NCBI GenBank assembly: GCA_026002875.1
Contig: BPGE01000001.1
Span: forward strand, 3,348,001-3,412,000
Reading direction: 5' to 3'
From: Bryobacteraceae bacterium
GTDB taxonomy: Bacteria > Acidobacteriota > Terriglobia > Bryobacterales > Bryobacteraceae
DNA: 64,000 nt
Shown: positions 49,748-55,008 of the stretch, piece by piece
Layout: every line of letters starts with the position of its first letter
Numbering within the stretch: position 1 is the first letter of the stretch
Made by a program: the position numbers and the translations under genes
Notes under the pieces: generated by a model
The model's database searches: none
The model's input: the letters and a program-made list of their open reading frames with translations, nothing else
What the model was told of the DNA's origin: nothing

Positions 49748-50437
49748 TCAGGCCTTCGCACTGCGGCGCAGGAGGCGGAGGATCGGGTTGGAAGACAGCT
49801 GGCGGCGGCCAAGTTCGGCGAACCGGGCCTTGGCCCGGGACTTCAGCAGGCGGAACTGCGTCTCGGTGAGGTCCATCTCCCTGCAGATCTGCTCCTGCGT
49901 CTGCTCGTAAAGGTAGAAGCGGGTCAGGATCTCCCGGTCGCGCGGAGAGATGCTGCGCAGCACCTGCAGCATGAGCTGGACCCGCTGTTCGCGCATCAGG
50001 CGCTGCTCGGGATCGTGGCGGTGATCGGCCACTCTGCCGCCGACTTCCAGATCGGCGTATTCGCGGCGCGAGCTGACGCTTTCTTCGATGTAGGAGGCGA
50101 CCTGACGCCTGACAATCGTCCGCACGAAGCCCATCAGCCTTTCGGGCTCCCGCAGCCCGCCGTTCTGGATCGCCCGGACGATGATGAGAAACGTATCGTG
50201 CACCCGGTCGTCCAGATCCTGGGCGCCCAAGTGACGGCAGAGGAAGAACCGGATGCCGCGCGACAGCAGGCGGTAAAGCTCCTCGATCGCTGCGCTGTCG
50301 CCCGCGCGGGCGCCTTCCACGAGCGGCGTCCACCGGGCGGCGGCGGACTGTTCGGCGGAGTCGGGCGACGGTTCACCGCCCAGGCTGTAACCGCCATGCT
50401 GGCTGCCATCAAAACGGGCGTCAGGCTGGAACGGCAT
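49748..50437 (-). CDS. ECF-type RNA polymerase sigma factor, coupled to the CHAT protease gene
   Basis: A 229-residue sigma-70 family protein. Region 2 covers about residues 45-120 (IEELYRLLSRGIRFFLCRHL, then GFVRTIVRRQVASYIEE). Region 4 is near residues 155-215 (LRSISPRDREILTRFYL, EQICREMDLTETQFRLLKSR), with a clear helix-turn-helix. No region 1 or region 3 is seen, as in ECF factors. The start at 50437 lies five bases after the CHAT stop codon, so the two genes are surely co-transcribed. No anti-sigma gene is adjacent, which leaves the upstream CHAT protein as the obvious partner. Confidence 0.83.
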   Translation of the reverse strand: MPFQPDARFDGSQHGGYSLGGEPSPDSAEQSAAARWTPLVEGARAGDSAAIEELYRLLSRGIRFFLCRHLGAQDLDDRVHDTFLIIVRAIQNGGLREPERLMGFVRTIVRRQVASYIEESVSSRREYADLEVGGRVADHRHDPEQRLMREQRVQLMLQVLRSISPRDREILTRFYLYEQTQEQICREMDLTETQFRLLKSRAKARFAELGRRQLSSNPILRLLRRSAKA

Positions 50438-50442
50438 CTCCG

Positions 50443-52881
50443 TCAGTCCTTCCCAAGGTGAATGTATGCGGCCCAGTAGCTGGGCTGGGAGCGCCACGCG
50501 CCATTGCGGATCATGGCCGCCTGGGCAGCCTGCAGCGCAACGGCGGGACGCTGGCCCTGCAGAAGGGCTCTGTAATACTCCTCGAAAAACGCTCCGTCGT
50601 CTCCGACCGGCCAGAGGCTGGCGACGACCGACCGGGCTCCTGCTGCCAGCCAGGCGTTGGCGAAACTGGACAGCCCGGCGCCGCGTTGCATCGCACCGCT
50701 GCCGGTCGAGCACCCGTTCAGAACCACGCGTGCGCCGCTGAGGCGGAACCGCGCCAGCGCCCGCTCCGTCAGGCCGTCGCGCGTTCCGTCCGCGCGCAGG
50801 GAAAGCGCCAGGAAGGGCTCGCCTGCCGGAAACCGGATCAGCGCCGGAACGCCCGAGCCTGGATTCGAGGCCAACCGGTACGAGACTGGCGCGGGCGCCG
50901 GCTGCACATGGGTGGCAAAATGCAGATCGGTCCAGTCCTCGTCGAGAGCCTGCGCTACAGCAGTCTCGCTGGCCTCGAATCCCGTCAGCAATCTGACCTG
51001 CCGTCCCTGCTGGCGCCACAGCGCGGCGATCGCCTCCACTTCCCGCTGGCTGCCGGGCAGGGTTGGGAGTTCATACTCCAGCTCACGGACGGATGCACGG
51101 CGCAAGGCCGGGCTGGAAGAGCTCCCGCCGCTCCGAGCCTCTTTCTGGACGGCGGCGCTCCACCTCGCATCCGCGCTGTTGTGAACGACTCCCCCCACGG
51201 CGAGCAGCCCGGCGGCAGGCCGATGCGCGTGAGGCTCCAGCAACCAGAGAGCGGAGGGGAGGAACGAGAGGGCCCGCGCCTCTCCAAGCCAGCGCGGCTG
51301 CCCTTCCGTCATCCGGAGCGCAGCCACGGGGGCATTGAGAGGCTCTTCATCGGCCGAGATCAGCCACTCGGCCCGCATCCTTGACCACGCAGGGGCGCGG
51401 CCGAAGGTGGCATCGTACAGGCGCGCTGCCACGCCCCTTGCGTCCCCGCCGTTCTCGATCAGATCGCGCAGCTGCTGGAACTCCTTGGCCAGCTCCTCCC
51501 GGCCGGGCATCCGGACGGCCGCAAAGTGATCGTCGGTGATCACCCAGAGAATGGATTGGCCGTGGCTCAGCCAGAACGTGAACAGAACCTGGTTGCGGTT
51601 GAGGGCTCGCTGCACCAGCTGCAACAGCCGCGCAGGCTCCGGAGGCGGAGGCGGCAGCGTGGAAAGCGGCAGCGAGGGCCTTTCAGAGGACGCAGTTCGC
51701 AAAATCACGGCCGGCCGCGGCCCGGATCGCGGGGCCTGCGAGCCGGTCAGATGCTGGCCCGGTACCGCTTCCGGCGTCCCCTCCTGCGAGCCGGAAACGG
51801 CCTGGCGCTTCCTCCGCCGGAGCATGTTCAGGGCGCGGCTCTGTTCCACTGCCGCCCAGGCCTCGAGGACGCCGCCCGATTCGACGGCCGCGGTGACGTA
51901 CTCGCTGACCAGGTCTGTCATGGCGACGTCGGCCGCCAGTTCGACCGTGGGATCGGGAAGGACGGCATGCCGCCATTCGAGGACGGGAAGCCAGTTCCGC
52001 CGGCACACTGCCAGCGCCCTCTCGGGGCCATGCTCCATGGCTTCCGCGCGCGCCTCGAACGCCGCCAGCCGGATGGCGTTGACGGGGCTCTGTTGCACCC
52101 TGCCTTGAGAGCGCACACGGTTGAACCACACCAGAGCCTCGCCCGGGCGGCGCTGCGCCAGCCGCAGCCGGCCAGCCAGCATCCAGAGGGAATCAGGGTC
52201 CGGCAGGCGGTGCAGAACCAGCAGCCGGAAAGAATTGGCGATCGCGTCTTCAGCCTGCCCTAGCCTGCCGGCGTCCAGATGGTGGATGGCCAGCTCGTCC
52301 CACAGGTGCCGCTGCACCTGCCAGTCCGCCCGGCTTTCGGCCCACTCCATCGCCTCGCTCCAGAGGCGGAAGAACTCTCCCTGCTTCAGATCGGGCCGCC
52401 TCGCCGCCAGCCGGATGCTCTGCGCCATCACGGCAGGGCGGAAACGGCTGTCCACCGGCATGAGCGCAAGCGCCCTCTCCAGCGCCTGTCCCGCGTCCGG
52501 CCAGGCGGACAGCATTCCGTACATCGCCGCGAGATTGGACCAGACGCTGGCCTCCACCTCCGCCATTCCGACCCGGTGGGAAAGCGCCAGAGCCTCGTGC
52601 AGAGGTCCGTAAGCGCCGAGAAAGTCCTGCTGGTAGAGCCGCGCCGCCCCGAGGTTGTTCAGCACCCGGGACAGCAGGGCATCATTGCCCTCCTCGCGGG
52701 CTCTGCGCTCGGCGCAGAGGGAAAGCTGTTCGGACTGCCGGTACTTGCCCGCGGCAAGAAGCAGTGCGGACTCCCGTGCCAGATCCTTCGTGGATGCGGC
52801 AGGAGAGCAGACAGGCTGGGCAGGGACAGGGGGAACCAGAAGGCAGGTGGAAAAGAAAAAGACTGCGAGACCGCGTGCCAT
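50443..52881 (-). CDS. Exported TPR-CHAT protease (caspase-like)
   Basis: An 812-residue protein. The N-terminus has a signal peptide (GLAVFFFSTCLLVPPVPAQ). Residues about 40-350 are helical TPR-like repeats. A Pro/Ser/Arg-rich linker (about 360-410) leads to a C-terminal CHAT domain. The catalytic His is H658 in LHFATHV and the Cys is C724 in LNGCSTG; SLWPVGDDGA follows as in CHAT peptidases. CHAT proteases cleave specific partner proteins once their repeat domain senses a signal. It is the first gene of an operon with the sigma factor. The predicted promoter is at 52976-52984, and a perfect hairpin lies in the leader. Confidence 0.82.
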   Translation of the reverse strand: MARGLAVFFFSTCLLVPPVPAQPVCSPAASTKDLARESALLLAAGKYRQSEQLSLCAERRAREEGNDALLSRVLNNLGAARLYQQDFLGAYGPLHEALALSHRVGMAEVEASVWSNLAAMYGMLSAWPDAGQALERALALMPVDSRFRPAVMAQSIRLAARRPDLKQGEFFRLWSEAMEWAESRADWQVQRHLWDELAIHHLDAGRLGQAEDAIANSFRLLVLHRLPDPDSLWMLAGRLRLAQRRPGEALVWFNRVRSQGRVQQSPVNAIRLAAFEARAEAMEHGPERALAVCRRNWLPVLEWRHAVLPDPTVELAADVAMTDLVSEYVTAAVESGGVLEAWAAVEQSRALNMLRRRKRQAVSGSQEGTPEAVPGQHLTGSQAPRSGPRPAVILRTASSERPSLPLSTLPPPPPEPARLLQLVQRALNRNQVLFTFWLSHGQSILWVITDDHFAAVRMPGREELAKEFQQLRDLIENGGDARGVAARLYDATFGRAPAWSRMRAEWLISADEEPLNAPVAALRMTEGQPRWLGEARALSFLPSALWLLEPHAHRPAAGLLAVGGVVHNSADARWSAAVQKEARSGGSSSSPALRRASVRELEYELPTLPGSQREVEAIAALWRQQGRQVRLLTGFEASETAVAQALDEDWTDLHFATHVQPAPAPVSYRLASNPGSGVPALIRFPAGEPFLALSLRADGTRDGLTERALARFRLSGARVVLNGCSTGSGAMQRGAGLSSFANAWLAAGARSVVASLWPVGDDGAFFEEYYRALLQGQRPAVALQAAQAAMIRNGAWRSQPSYWAAYIHLGKD

Positions 52882-52938
52882 CTCGGGTTCCCGAGGCCAA
52901 GCATTGATGACAGCGCCGATACCGCCTGTGATGGCGCC

Positions 52939-52969
52939 GGGAGGGTACTAGAACTTTTAGTACCCTCCC
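52939..52969 (-). promoter_or_regulatory. Perfect 12-bp hairpin at the predicted 5' end of the CHAT-sigma mRNA
   Basis: GGGAGGGTACTA and TAGTACCCTCCC (52939-52950 and 52958-52969) form a perfect 12-bp inverted repeat with a seven-base loop. The predicted transcription start, seven bases after the TATAGT box, is 52969, so the mRNA would begin with the hairpin. It could be a repressor operator at +1 to +31 or a 5'-end stabilising stem-loop. The CHAT start codon is 58 bases downstream. Confidence 0.65.
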
Positions 52970-52975
52970 TCAGCG

Positions 52976-52984
52976 ACTATACCA
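52976..52984 (-). promoter_or_regulatory. Extended -10 promoter of the CHAT-sigma operon
   Basis: Reading leftwards TGGTATAGT, a TGN-extended -10 element. The -35 region at 17 bases is GGAGAT, a weak match, as is usual with an extended -10. The start of transcription is predicted at 52969, the first base of the hairpin. Confidence 0.5.
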
Positions 52985-53052: not shown

Positions 53053-53080
53053 GAATAGTCCCTCGAGCGCGGGACTATTC
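53053..53080 (-). promoter_or_regulatory. Perfect 10-bp hairpin directly after the small open frame
   Basis: GAATAGTCCC (53053-53062) and GGGACTATTC (53071-53080) form a perfect ten-bp stem with an eight-base loop TCGAGCGC. The right arm abuts the stop codon of the 15-codon frame at 53081. There is no T-run. It could be a terminator, an attenuator upstream of the CHAT gene or an operator. Confidence 0.6.
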
Positions 53081-53128
53081 TCAGCAAAAGTCGGGGGGAA
53101 GGATGATGATGATCGGGGAACCGTCCAT
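53081..53128 (-). CDS. Possible 15-residue peptide gene with an ideal ribosome-binding site
   Basis: An ATG at 53128 opens a 15-codon frame, MDGSPIIIILPPDFC, ending in TGA at 53081. The sequence AAAGGAGG (53033 side not involved; located at 53133-53140) is a perfect Shine-Dalgarno and sits four bases upstream of the ATG. The stop codon is followed at once by a perfect ten-bp hairpin. The peptide has a run of four isoleucines and a terminal cysteine. It lies on the same strand as, and upstream of, the CHAT-sigma operon. It may be a leader peptide, a small secreted or membrane peptide, or chance; nothing like it is known to me. Confidence 0.35.
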   Translation of the reverse strand: MDGSPIIIILPPDFC

Positions 53129-53140
53129 GCCGCCTCCTTT

Positions 53141-53646
53141 CTGAGCCGGCCTCCGGGGCCAGCCTGAGGCGACGCTAGACAGGCTCCCACCCCGCCCCCG
53201 CATTCCTCCCATAACTTATTGAAAAGAAAATAGAATAAAATTCCTTTCCTCCGCGGACGGCACCGTGCCGGTCCAGGTGATTTCCTCCGAGCCTCCGCAT
53301 CGACCGCGCACGGCGGCACCCTTTTCTGGCACCGGTCAGCTCCGCCATCCGCTTTCACTCCGCGCCCTGGAACCTCCAGAATGACGGTGCGTTCCGCCCG
53401 GGCAGGCAACTGGATCACGTCGGCGGGCACGCGAGTCAGGGGGCGGCGGAAAGCCCGGCATCGAGCCGTCCTCCGGGTGTAACCCGGTCACTTCCGCAGC
53501 CGGATTTCCCCATCGATGCGGGATCTGGAAGTCATGGCGTGACCATCACTCCGGCTCGTCAATGGTCTCTTCCCCCCGGCAGCCCGCGCGGAGAATTTGC
53601 GTTTCAGGTCACGACCATGCAATTTCTGCATCTGGAAGCTGTGGCC
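53141..53646. other. Non-coding region between the CHAT-sigma operon and the NtrC-like gene
   Basis: About 500 bases without a convincing gene. A short AT-rich patch at 53205-53245, in an otherwise GC-rich stretch, is the most likely place for promoters reading both ways. The 135-codon minus-strand frame across this region (53430 to 53023) is rich in Arg, Pro and Ser and runs through the hairpin, so it is not called. The plus-strand frame of the regulator is open from 53539, but only the part from 53647 aligns with receiver domains. Confidence 0.4.
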
Positions 53647-55008
53647 ATGCGACAGGGTAACAGTCCGGCCGCCTCCATCCTTGTGGTCGGCGGCGAACCG
53701 CAGGTGCAGCCGTGGCTGGAGGCGGTCTTGCGGGAGGACGGCCATGCGGTCACTCTCGCCTCTGGCGTCCGCGAAACAGCCGAGCGGCTCCGGGGGCATG
53801 CATACACGCTCGTCATCTCCGACCTTGAGCTGCCGGACGGCGACGGACTGCAGGTGCTCGGCATGATTCGTCAGCGGCAGCCGGCCGCAGCGTTTCTGCT
53901 CCTCATCCGGAGCGGTGCAATGGCCTCGGCTGTCGAGGCTCTGCACCGCGGCGCTCTGGATTTTCTGGAGAAGCCCTTCCGCAGCCCCAACGATGTCAGG
54001 CTGGCGGTCCGGCGCGCGATCACCCTGGCCCGTCAGACGGACGAGAAGCCCCGGGAAGCCGATGGACCGAGAGCCACCCCCGGCCTGTGCGGATCGATGG
54101 TTGCGCGTGATCCGCGCATGCTCCATGTCCTGAATCTCCTTGGCAAGGTCGCGCCGGCTTCGGCGAACGTGCTCCTGATCGGCGAAACGGGAGTCGGCAA
54201 AGAAGTGATCGCCCGGTGCCTTCACCTGCACAGCCGGCGGGCGTCGGCGCCGTTCATCGCAGTCCATTGCCTGGCGCTCGGGCCAAGCCTCGTGGAAAGC
54301 GAGCTTTTCGGCTATGAACGCGGGTCTTTCGCCGGAGCCGTTGCGCGGCGTCACGGCGCCCTGGAACGGGCGCGGGGCGGAACGGTGTTTCTCGACGGCA
54401 TCGCTGACCTGCCGCCGGCGACGCAGGCGAAACTGCTGAAGGCCCTCCGCAACGGAAGTTTCCATCGCATCGGCGGAACGCAGGCGATCGGAACCGACGT
54501 CCGCATCATCTCCGCGTCAGACCGTGGTCTGGAGGCGCTGGCGGGCGGCGGGTTCGATCCGGATCTGCTCGCCCTGCTCGGCGCCTTCCCTATGGAAATC
54601 CCCCCGCTCCGCGACCGACCGGCCGACATCGATGCTCTCGCGGATCAGTTCGTGGCCGCCGCTGCCGCCAAGTTTGGCAAGCCTGAATTGCGCCTGAGCG
54701 AGGCGGCCCGGTTCCTGCTCCGTTCCCATCCTTGGCCCGGCAATGTCCGGGAGCTGGAAAACGCCATTGAGAGGGCCGCCATTCTCAGCGACGGCGAAAT
54801 CCGTCCTGACCATCTCCCCTTCGGCCCCCCGCAGACGGTGGATCCGGCTTCCGCGGGCACGCTCAACGTGCACGAGCTCGAGCGTATCGCCATCGAAGAG
54901 GCCCTCAGGCGTCACGGCGGCAACCGCACCCGCGCCGCCCGTGAGCTTGGCATCAGCCTCAGGACTCTCCAGTACAGACTGAAGGAATTCGGTCTGTCCC
55001 GCTCCTGA
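53647..55008 (+). CDS. NtrC-type response regulator with degenerate AAA+ domain
   Basis: A 453-residue protein in NtrC order: receiver domain (about residues 10-130, phospho-acceptor D59 in ISDLELPDG, K109 in LEKPF), AAA+ domain (about 150-385, Walker A GETGVGKE at 179-186) and a C-terminal Fis-type helix-turn-helix (NRTRAARELGISLRTLQYRL). Several key AAA+ positions are changed. GAFTGA reads GSFAGA (226-231), the Walker B is FLDG with Gly in place of Glu (D250-G251), and the arginine-finger motif FRxDLYYRL reads FDPDLLALL (303-311). The receiver also lacks one of the usual acidic pair (GGEP). It likely binds DNA but should not hydrolyse ATP or open sigma-54 promoters normally. The start is uncertain (53617 also possible). 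Confidence 0.8.
   Translation: MRQGNSPAASILVVGGEPQVQPWLEAVLREDGHAVTLASGVRETAERLRGHAYTLVISDLELPDGDGLQVLGMIRQRQPAAAFLLLIRSGAMASAVEALHRGALDFLEKPFRSPNDVRLAVRRAITLARQTDEKPREADGPRATPGLCGSMVARDPRMLHVLNLLGKVAPASANVLLIGETGVGKEVIARCLHLHSRRASAPFIAVHCLALGPSLVESELFGYERGSFAGAVARRHGALERARGGTVFLDGIADLPPATQAKLLKALRNGSFHRIGGTQAIGTDVRIISASDRGLEALAGGGFDPDLLALLGAFPMEIPPLRDRPADIDALADQFVAAAAAKFGKPELRLSEAARFLLRSHPWPGNVRELENAIERAAILSDGEIRPDHLPFGPPQTVDPASAGTLNVHELERIAIEEALRRHGGNRTRAARELGISLRTLQYRLKEFGLSRS

Follow-up and report, generated by a model that had tools for sequence, protein, structure and literature searches.

Adjacent genes for a TPR-CHAT protease and an extracytoplasmic function (ECF) sigma factor lie in a 64,000-nucleotide stretch of a Bryobacteraceae genome (here called the window; contig BPGE01000001.1 of assembly GCA_026002875.1, positions 3,348,001 to 3,412,000). 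Our leading reading, to which we give a probability of about 0.55, is that the exported TPR-CHAT protein acts on the outer domain of a membrane-bound zinc-type anti-sigma factor (ZAS) and that the sigma factor is thereby freed inside, which would make the three proteins a switch across the cytoplasmic membrane. At the level of sequence this is supported by gene order, export signals, conservation of the catalytic dyad, the anatomy of ZAS, the co-inheritance of CHAT with full-length ZAS and the retention of ZAS after the operon has split. An earlier sequence-only reading of this DNA had coupled protease and sigma factor directly, with no anti-sigma factor between them. That claim is not supported: a membrane ZAS exists, unlinked in the window's genus and encoded by the third gene in most of the relatives read.

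The CHAT-sigma pair and its conservation

The 812-residue TPR-CHAT protein, the five-base gap and the 229-residue sigma factor described in that reading are borne out by coordinates, Pfam and TIGR02937 (Table 1). The window CHAT matches PF12770 over residues 505-810 (E 3e-43, 148.8 bits against a cut-off of 24), with weaker Pfam matches to TPR on the N-terminal side, and is the sole CHAT-family match at E 0.001 in its own genome (a single contig of 4.86 Mb). The sigma factor matches TIGR02937 over residues 50-206 (E 1.1e-13, 51.1 bits, cut-off 42.9) and Sigma70_r4_2 above cut-off (E 6.6e-7, 29.3 bits against 25.7); Pfam region 2 scores 17.2 bits, below its cut-off of 24. Identity to 37 aligned family relatives is 46-78%, and no solved structure matches the sigma profile at 1e-5.

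We searched 150 genomes of the family with both proteins, scoring 6 CHAT and up to 19 sigma candidates per genome. The named relatives are mostly metagenome-assembled genomes labelled Bryobacteraceae, Bryobacterales or Acidobacteria. A listed CHAT hit stands directly upstream of sigma, on the same strand, in 112 of the 136 genomes for which the best sigma relative was listed (the window's own included). Up to 13 kb around sigma was then read in 80 genomes, namely all 24 without a listed adjacent CHAT and 56 of the 112 paired ones. Among the 24, a profile search did find CHAT at the locus in G125 and G131; for G085 the sigma that was read is only distantly related (E 4.1e-41), and CHAT lies on another contig. 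The pair is thus a conserved unit, beyond chance and family-wide.

The CHAT protein: dyad, export signal and fold

Both members of the His-Cys dyad noted earlier are where they were placed: His658 and Cys724 are present in the window protein and kept in 56/56 aligned family relatives, in which the polar residues N568, D571, R573, E614 and D761 are likewise invariant. The catalytic residues are in place, and peptidase activity is predicted. The N-terminus (about residues 1-22, MARGLAVFFFSTCLLVPPVPAQ) resembles a signal peptide, as had also been claimed. Relatives agree: 42 of 49 full-length CHATs pass an export-signal rule, and in the remaining seven a signal was read by eye. Three of these seven, all from one genus (L091, L134 and L136), have an N-terminus ending in a lipobox-like PGC or PSC, which suggests that the CHAT of that genus is a lipoprotein. 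No interior 19-residue stretch of the full-length relatives exceeds a hydropathy of 1.9.

An AlphaFold model of the window CHAT (32 sequences; pLDDT 82, pTM 0.82) has TPR helices at 31-365, a low-confidence linker at 365-408 and the CHAT region at 416-812. In Foldseek, DdvA ranks first (8rw5, 7.7e-17; 8rot, 2e-16; TM-score 0.46-0.50), followed by Csx29/TPR-CHAT (8eex, 8.1e-14) and then separase. The sequence profile gives the same order, with DdvA 8rot_B (991 residues) as the best solved match (E 1e-8, His and Cys at aligned places) and Csx29 next (E 0.024). As a single sequence, the window CHAT finds nothing better than 0.75 among solved structures.

A predicted membrane anti-sigma factor as the third gene

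Genes around sigma were called with a simple script and clustered. In most relatives read, sigma is directly followed by a gene for a protein of about 200-250 residues that has EEHLLxCxxCQ close to its N-terminus. In an alignment of 24 sequences, picked from 47 full-length ones, the motif H-x3-C-x2-C is invariant (H49, C53 and C56 in 24/24), and Pfam zf-HC2 matches 17 of the 24. Among solved structures, the top matches to the profile are ChrR (9.6e-5), RsiW (0.004) and 3hug (0.012), which we take to be RslA; a 90-residue chain of DdvA follows at 0.25. The outer part of the profile matches Fn3 domains of DCC.

All 51 long forms have a hydrophobic segment followed by 90-110 residues, and all 13 short forms come from loci where no CHAT was found. 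In an AlphaFold model of one long form (pLDDT 79, pTM 0.49), helices extend to residue 86, a helix at 119-135 coincides with the hydrophobic segment and strands occupy 144-240; structure comparison of the outer domain returns generic beta-sandwich matches only. As read from its sequence, the third gene is a ZAS with a membrane segment and an outer beta domain of about 105 residues, and it putatively binds and inhibits its cognate sigma.

In the search for a linked membrane or anti-sigma gene in relatives, suggested with the sequence-only reading, 47 of the 80 loci read show the order CHAT, sigma, long ZAS, with CHAT and ZAS as separate genes. A further 10 have CHAT and sigma without a linked ZAS, 10 have sigma and a short ZAS without CHAT, five have sigma alone, two have sigma and a long ZAS without a linked CHAT, and six are unassignable at contig ends. 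On the sigma tree (29 of 77 inner branches well supported), the state lacking CHAT and with a short ZAS appears in about five places. Another set of 80 named loci overlaps with this one; 74 of its members have CHAT (with full-length ZAS in 60, partial ZAS in one and no ZAS in 13), and the six without CHAT all have a short ZAS. Five loci whose sigma relatives lack CHAT (L070, L074, L076, L077 and L078) adjoin a flagellar cluster, identified from FliE and FliG by Pfam in L077 and from shared clusters in the other four; their ZAS is mostly short, and long in L076 (genome G059).

An apparently split operon in the window's genus

That no anti-sigma gene lies near the window pair, as was noted before, is correct: none was found within the 13-kb stretch around it (L086), and the matches listed in the window's own genome for the ZAS profile (6) and for Pfam zf-HC2 (10) all fall outside the window. 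None of the five genomes of the genus has a linked ZAS; each has an unlinked full-length one. The window genome's own copy (contig 3263898-3264551, minus strand, E 1.8e-52) is about 133 kb from the pair and about 83 kb beyond the window. It carries EEHLLFCEDC, in keeping with H-x3-C-x2-C, a hydrophobic segment near residue 109 and then about 110 residues, and it passes Pfam zf-HC2 (22.9 bits, cut-off 22.2).

In 5/5 genus genomes this unlinked ZAS adjoins ACT-domain, HAD-hydrolase (KdsC, by reading), TilS and FtsH genes. At several loci elsewhere in the family, genes related to these come after the intact operon (cluster 3 in 17 loci, cluster 5 in 10, clusters 10 and 11 in six each). Because its neighbours are the genes that follow the intact operon, the operon looks to have been split in this genus with both parts retained and ZAS at the apparent ancestral site. 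The other five CHAT-bearing genomes without a linked ZAS among the 80 loci also have ZAS elsewhere. In G127 and G047 the surroundings of ZAS are those seen in the genus; in G029, G004 and G045 such surroundings were not found.

A protease outside the cell and a sigma factor inside had appeared as a puzzle, for which a membrane protein encoded elsewhere was one suggested solution. The data suggest just this, since ZAS would span the membrane with its outer domain exposed. The sequence-only reading had further named, as evidence against itself, a dedicated anti-sigma partner elsewhere in combination with a CHAT protein lacking any effect on sigma activity; the partner, some 133 kb away, is the half that turned up.

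Co-inheritance and sequence distances

A genome was called CHAT-positive at E 1e-115 or better with the operon-CHAT profile (A2, 41 sequences), which gave 120 of 150; weaker listed matches lie mostly in larger frames of about 880-1250 aa. ZAS was called with profile A1 at E 1e-20, again among the 6 (CHAT) and 19 (ZAS) best candidates per genome. There is such a match in 124/150 genomes, and with the short forms of G001, G020 and G087 set apart, 121 reach the outer domain (those of G035 and G147 being partial, and that of G066 split over two frames). Full-length ZAS occurs in 117 of the 120 CHAT-positive genomes, and the three misses (G049, G085 and G086) have their CHAT gene at a contig end. 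It occurs in four of the 30 CHAT-negative ones: G084 and G131, where the end of a CHAT is visible at the contig edge, and G059 and G147.

By our reading, 18 genomes retain a close sigma (E 1e-53 or better) but not the operon CHAT (G001, G007, G020, G034, G039, G059, G077, G079, G087, G100, G103, G114, G121, G123, G136, G140, G141 and G145); one of them, G059, gave a full-length ZAS of this family. A contig end cuts the linked ZAS of G114, that of G123 stops near one, and in G039 only 904 nt upstream of sigma are available. Further long ZAS matches, at E 1e-18 to 1e-10, occur in some of the 18 (e.g. G100, G145, G103, G140 and G001); we take them as paralogues because G047 and G054 have them in addition to an operon ZAS of their own. 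Where sigma persists without CHAT, ZAS is usually without its outer domain.

Contact outside the membrane predicts that CHAT should correlate with the ZAS outer domain and sigma should not. Across 38 three-gene loci, CHAT and outer-domain distances correlate at r 0.64, and at 0.62 given sigma (0 of 2000 permutations). For CHAT and the inner part of ZAS the figures are 0.53 and 0.45 given sigma; for sigma and the outer domain, given CHAT, the correlation is -0.05.

The region upstream of CHAT

Two elements recur upstream of the CHAT gene: an open reading frame (ORF) for a micropeptide and a hairpin (Table 1). The pattern used for the former (M..PIIIIxPP.., 9-20 residues as called) was framed on the ORF first spotted in five genus sequences. 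A match with a start codon lies in the 400 nt before CHAT in 29 of 49 loci. Outside the genus the count is 24 of 44, and 23 of the 29 have a Shine-Dalgarno-like stretch; random control windows from the same loci gave 28 matches in 7635, five with such a stretch. Among 20 loci without CHAT (700 nt upstream of sigma), the bare pattern appears in one, L062, where we judge it unrelated; two further loci offered less than 300 nt. The DNA core of the micropeptide occurs once in each genus genome (5/5), at this site. Seven of 13 genomes match it, G127 and G145 have single matches elsewhere, and a reversed control pattern matches once. In G054 the CHAT gene is separated from sigma and ZAS, and there the ORF precedes CHAT. 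Judging from the upstream regions of L086-L141 and L327, the micropeptide ORF goes with CHAT, also where CHAT has moved.

Table 1. Features of the CHAT-sigma locus (positions are those of the window)
Feature	Position	Strand	Basis or remark
ECF-type sigma-70 family factor gene, 229 aa	49748..50437	-	TIGR02937, Sigma70_r4_2, family relatives
Gap from CHAT stop to sigma start, 5 nt (CGGAG)	50438..50442	-	Sequence
TPR-CHAT protease gene, 812 aa	50443..52881	-	Pfam match, conserved dyad, AlphaFold model, export signal
Inverted repeat GGGAGGGTACTA-N7-TAGTACCCTCCC	52939..52969	-	At or after presumed transcription start
Extended -10-like element TGGTATAGT (TGnTAnnnT)	52976..52984	-	Precedes hairpin
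Inverted repeat GAATAGTCCC-N8-GGGACTATTC, immediately after micropeptide stop	53053..53080	-	By eye, in all five genus genomes, with variation
Micropeptide ORF MDGSPIIIILPPDFC, preceded by AGAAAGGAGG	53081..53128	-	End 199 nt upstream of CHAT

Between micropeptide and CHAT, the best hairpin reaches a score of at least 11.8 in 29 of the 50 upstream regions; of the 452 control windows, 3 do so. A TGnTAnnnT element, which we take to be an extended -10-like promoter motif, stands just before 27 of the 29 strong hairpins, although these were found without using the motif; the two together occur in none of the 452 controls. The element is probably the promoter of the CHAT gene, in which case the micropeptide would lie off the main CHAT transcript. 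In an alignment of hairpins (30 of the 33 found by rule, L097, L129 and the near-copy L139 being left out), all seven predicted pairs change on both sides. Since the aligned hairpins had been picked beforehand for pairing and CTGnTA, both this covariation and the constancy of CTG and TA partly reflect the selection, and the better evidence is the rule-free comparison with controls. Rfam gives no match in the window at gathering scores and none in four relatives at E up to 1, and a DNA pattern written for the hairpin's form in other genera has no match in the window. A DNA operator in place of an RNA hairpin was considered and is disfavoured, as loop length varies.

On the far side of this region, a divergent gene for a sigma-54-type response regulator (Pfam; window 53539-55008, plus strand) adjoins the CHAT gene, and it holds the same place in 5/5 genus genomes (cluster 17). 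The CHAT-sigma pair of the genus also adjoins a pfkB gene.

A proposed three-part switch and its alternatives

In the mechanism that we favour, the TPR-CHAT protein would be exported by its signal peptide (or as a lipoprotein-like form in one genus) and would work outside the cytoplasmic membrane. The ECF sigma would be held inside by the zinc-binding domain of ZAS, with the beta domain of about 105 residues outside. A signal sensed by the TPR part would switch on the CHAT His-Cys protease, which would cut or otherwise disable the ZAS outer domain in a site-1-like step. The rest of ZAS may then be further proteolysed, perhaps by an M50 site-2 protease, leaving sigma free. The window's genome has M50-family proteases, one of them a strong match that could serve as the site-2 protease for ZAS; the family also matches all 14 control genomes and is not discriminating.

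Several points weigh against this proposal. G059 (sigma and a long ZAS, operon CHAT not found) and G147 (a partial ZAS, positions 87-219, without CHAT) count as real exceptions on the present data. The limits of 6 and 19 candidates per genome mean that some absences may be false, and the co-inheritance counts ignore phylogeny. In some CHAT-negative genomes (e.g. G113, G122 and G137) no close sigma was found, and joint absence there says little. The distance test was made without a species tree, and the correlation between sigma and the inner part of ZAS given CHAT, which the model needs, is weak (0.19, reached by 89 of 2000 permutations). In addition, the TM-score of DdvA against the CHAT model is no higher than 0.46-0.50, and the probable CHAT promoter looks like an ordinary extended -10 element, with no sign of autoregulation. 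Finally, the topology in the cell, physical contact, cleavage, the order and direction of control, the signal and the sigma targets are all inferred.

CHAT might instead be an outer co-anti-sigma factor or sensor that binds the ZAS outer domain and gates another protease, without cutting ZAS, much as RseB acts on RseA as an outer co-anti-sigma. The co-inheritance and distance data are likewise in its favour, and DdvA appears to join TPR-CHAT to an anti-sigma domain in one chain, so the domain may sense. Yet the invariance of the His-Cys dyad (56/56) and of N568, D571, R573, E614 and D761 is not obviously needed for binding alone, and we regard this version as unlikely. Somewhat less probable still is that CHAT is the system's output, an exported protective or suicidal effector, with sigma and ZAS sensing something else. 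Other, mostly larger CHATs with export-like N-termini do occur in many Acidobacteriota; on the other hand, loci that retain sigma but not CHAT usually have a ZAS without the outer domain, which is what an action of CHAT on that domain would lead one to expect.

The remaining alternatives fare worse. An action of the CHAT protease on sigma itself, with no anti-sigma factor, has a published precedent in the proposal for ECF54 (PMC8999054), and the window's genus indeed has no linked anti-sigma gene. The CHAT export signals and the unlinked full-length ZAS in 5/5 genus genomes make it very improbable, and given the third gene and the unlinked ZAS we set direct coupling aside. Expression alone sometimes preserves gene order, which leaves chance neighbours or simple hitchhiking as an explanation; it is largely contradicted by an order kept in 112/136 genomes and by a co-occurrence that holds where the genes have separated, and we find it scarcely credible.

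A bolder version of the three-part switch would make CHAT proteases a new class of site-1 proteases for membrane anti-sigma factors, with the Bryobacteraceae form governed by its own micropeptide; we consider it speculative and rather improbable. The peptide might be a ligand of the outer TPR sensor, by analogy with the peptide and receptor pair Phr-Rap, here outside the membrane. Alternatively, it might be a ribosome-stalling leader that reports on translation or export.

Distant relatives and comparison with known systems

Beyond the family, we searched 396 genomes of the phylum (2 candidates scored each). Among the matches listed, E is below 1e-200 in three, all of family f1, and other families reach 6e-116 at best. 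Distant CHATs were examined at 26 loci, each with roughly 1.5 kb of flanking sequence (from the series L300-L326, leaving out one that does not apply; L314 and L320 are cut or broken). Three of these, L300, L316 and L322 (f10, f67 and f11, other families of the phylum), have CHAT, sigma and ZAS, with divergent sequences, in the same order and on the same strand. A simple rule finds an N-terminal hydrophobic stretch in 16 of 25 distant CHATs, and a signal was read in six more.

The proposed switch resembles the regulated proteolysis known for other membrane anti-sigma factors. One likeness is to RsiW/PrsW/RasP, in which PrsW and RasP are proteases acting on RsiW, itself among the solved matches of the ZAS profile. 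Another is to RseA/DegS/RseP, with a membrane anti-sigma factor that has an outer domain and is activated by proteolysis (the RseA steps as given in PMC10028731). These systems differ in their site-1 proteases, DegS and PrsW, and a CHAT protease in that place would be a new element. ECF54 is alike in that CHAT-domain proteins occur in the genetic context of an ECF sigma (PMC8999054); here a ZAS is present, and the window sigma is likened to ECF54 by gene context, not by group assignment.

In the type III-E system Csx29-Csx30-CASP-sigma, a TPR-CHAT protease likewise cuts an inhibitor that holds an ECF sigma. That system is triggered by RNA via Cas7-11, and Csx30 is not described as a membrane ZAS in the accessible part of the source (PMC10028731). 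The Csx29 analogy drawn by the sequence-only reading is apt for a protease-controlled sigma; the closest relative, by fold and by sequence, is DdvA. Type III-E kinship is disfavoured: Csx29 ranks below DdvA on both counts, and a PADLOC search with the window CHAT and sigma found nothing at 1e-3, though no search was aimed at Csx30.

The nearest parallel is DdvA-DdvS of Myxococcus xanthus, where an ECF sigma is held by an anti-sigma factor tied to a TPR-CHAT. According to PMC12288465 and PMC4374960, DdvA is the transmembrane anti-sigma factor of DdvS, and an antiphage island that includes a type III-B CRISPR system is under the control of DdvS. The window's own genome has RAMP-family (type III CRISPR-like) matches outside the window at about 264-272, 1692-1694 and 2127-2129 kb, in frames of 258-607 aa that speak against a one-chain effector; by analogy with the DdvS island, these places are candidate sigma targets.

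We found no literature on this CHAT-sigma-ZAS system in a search that lay outside most subscription papers, and the accessible part of PMC3174227 makes no mention of CHAT. Precedents exist for CHAT in the neighbourhood of an ECF sigma (ECF54), for the cleavage of a sigma inhibitor by a CHAT protease and for an anti-sigma factor with CHAT (DdvA). As far as the literature searched goes, the following are new: an exported, split form in which ZAS is a membrane protein of its own; the breadth of its conservation within the family; the micropeptide; and the shared fate that ties CHAT to the ZAS outer domain. If the three-part switch is right, a protease related to caspases and separase would take the site-1 place in envelope signalling, and there would be an explanation for a regulatory system that most members of a large and little-studied bacterial family have retained. 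The concordance of CHAT with the ZAS outer domain also yields a sharp prediction of the substrate.

DdvA is apparently one chain (991 residues, 8rot_B), whereas here the anti-sigma factor and the TPR-CHAT are two proteins, of which CHAT is exported separately and ZAS brings a beta domain of its own. The system thus lacks the one-chain layout (anti-sigma, membrane helix, TPR-CHAT): the genes are separate in the 47 loci with both and in the window's genus. As an apparent split counterpart of DdvA, the system would allow a clean test of the effect of CHAT on an anti-sigma factor.

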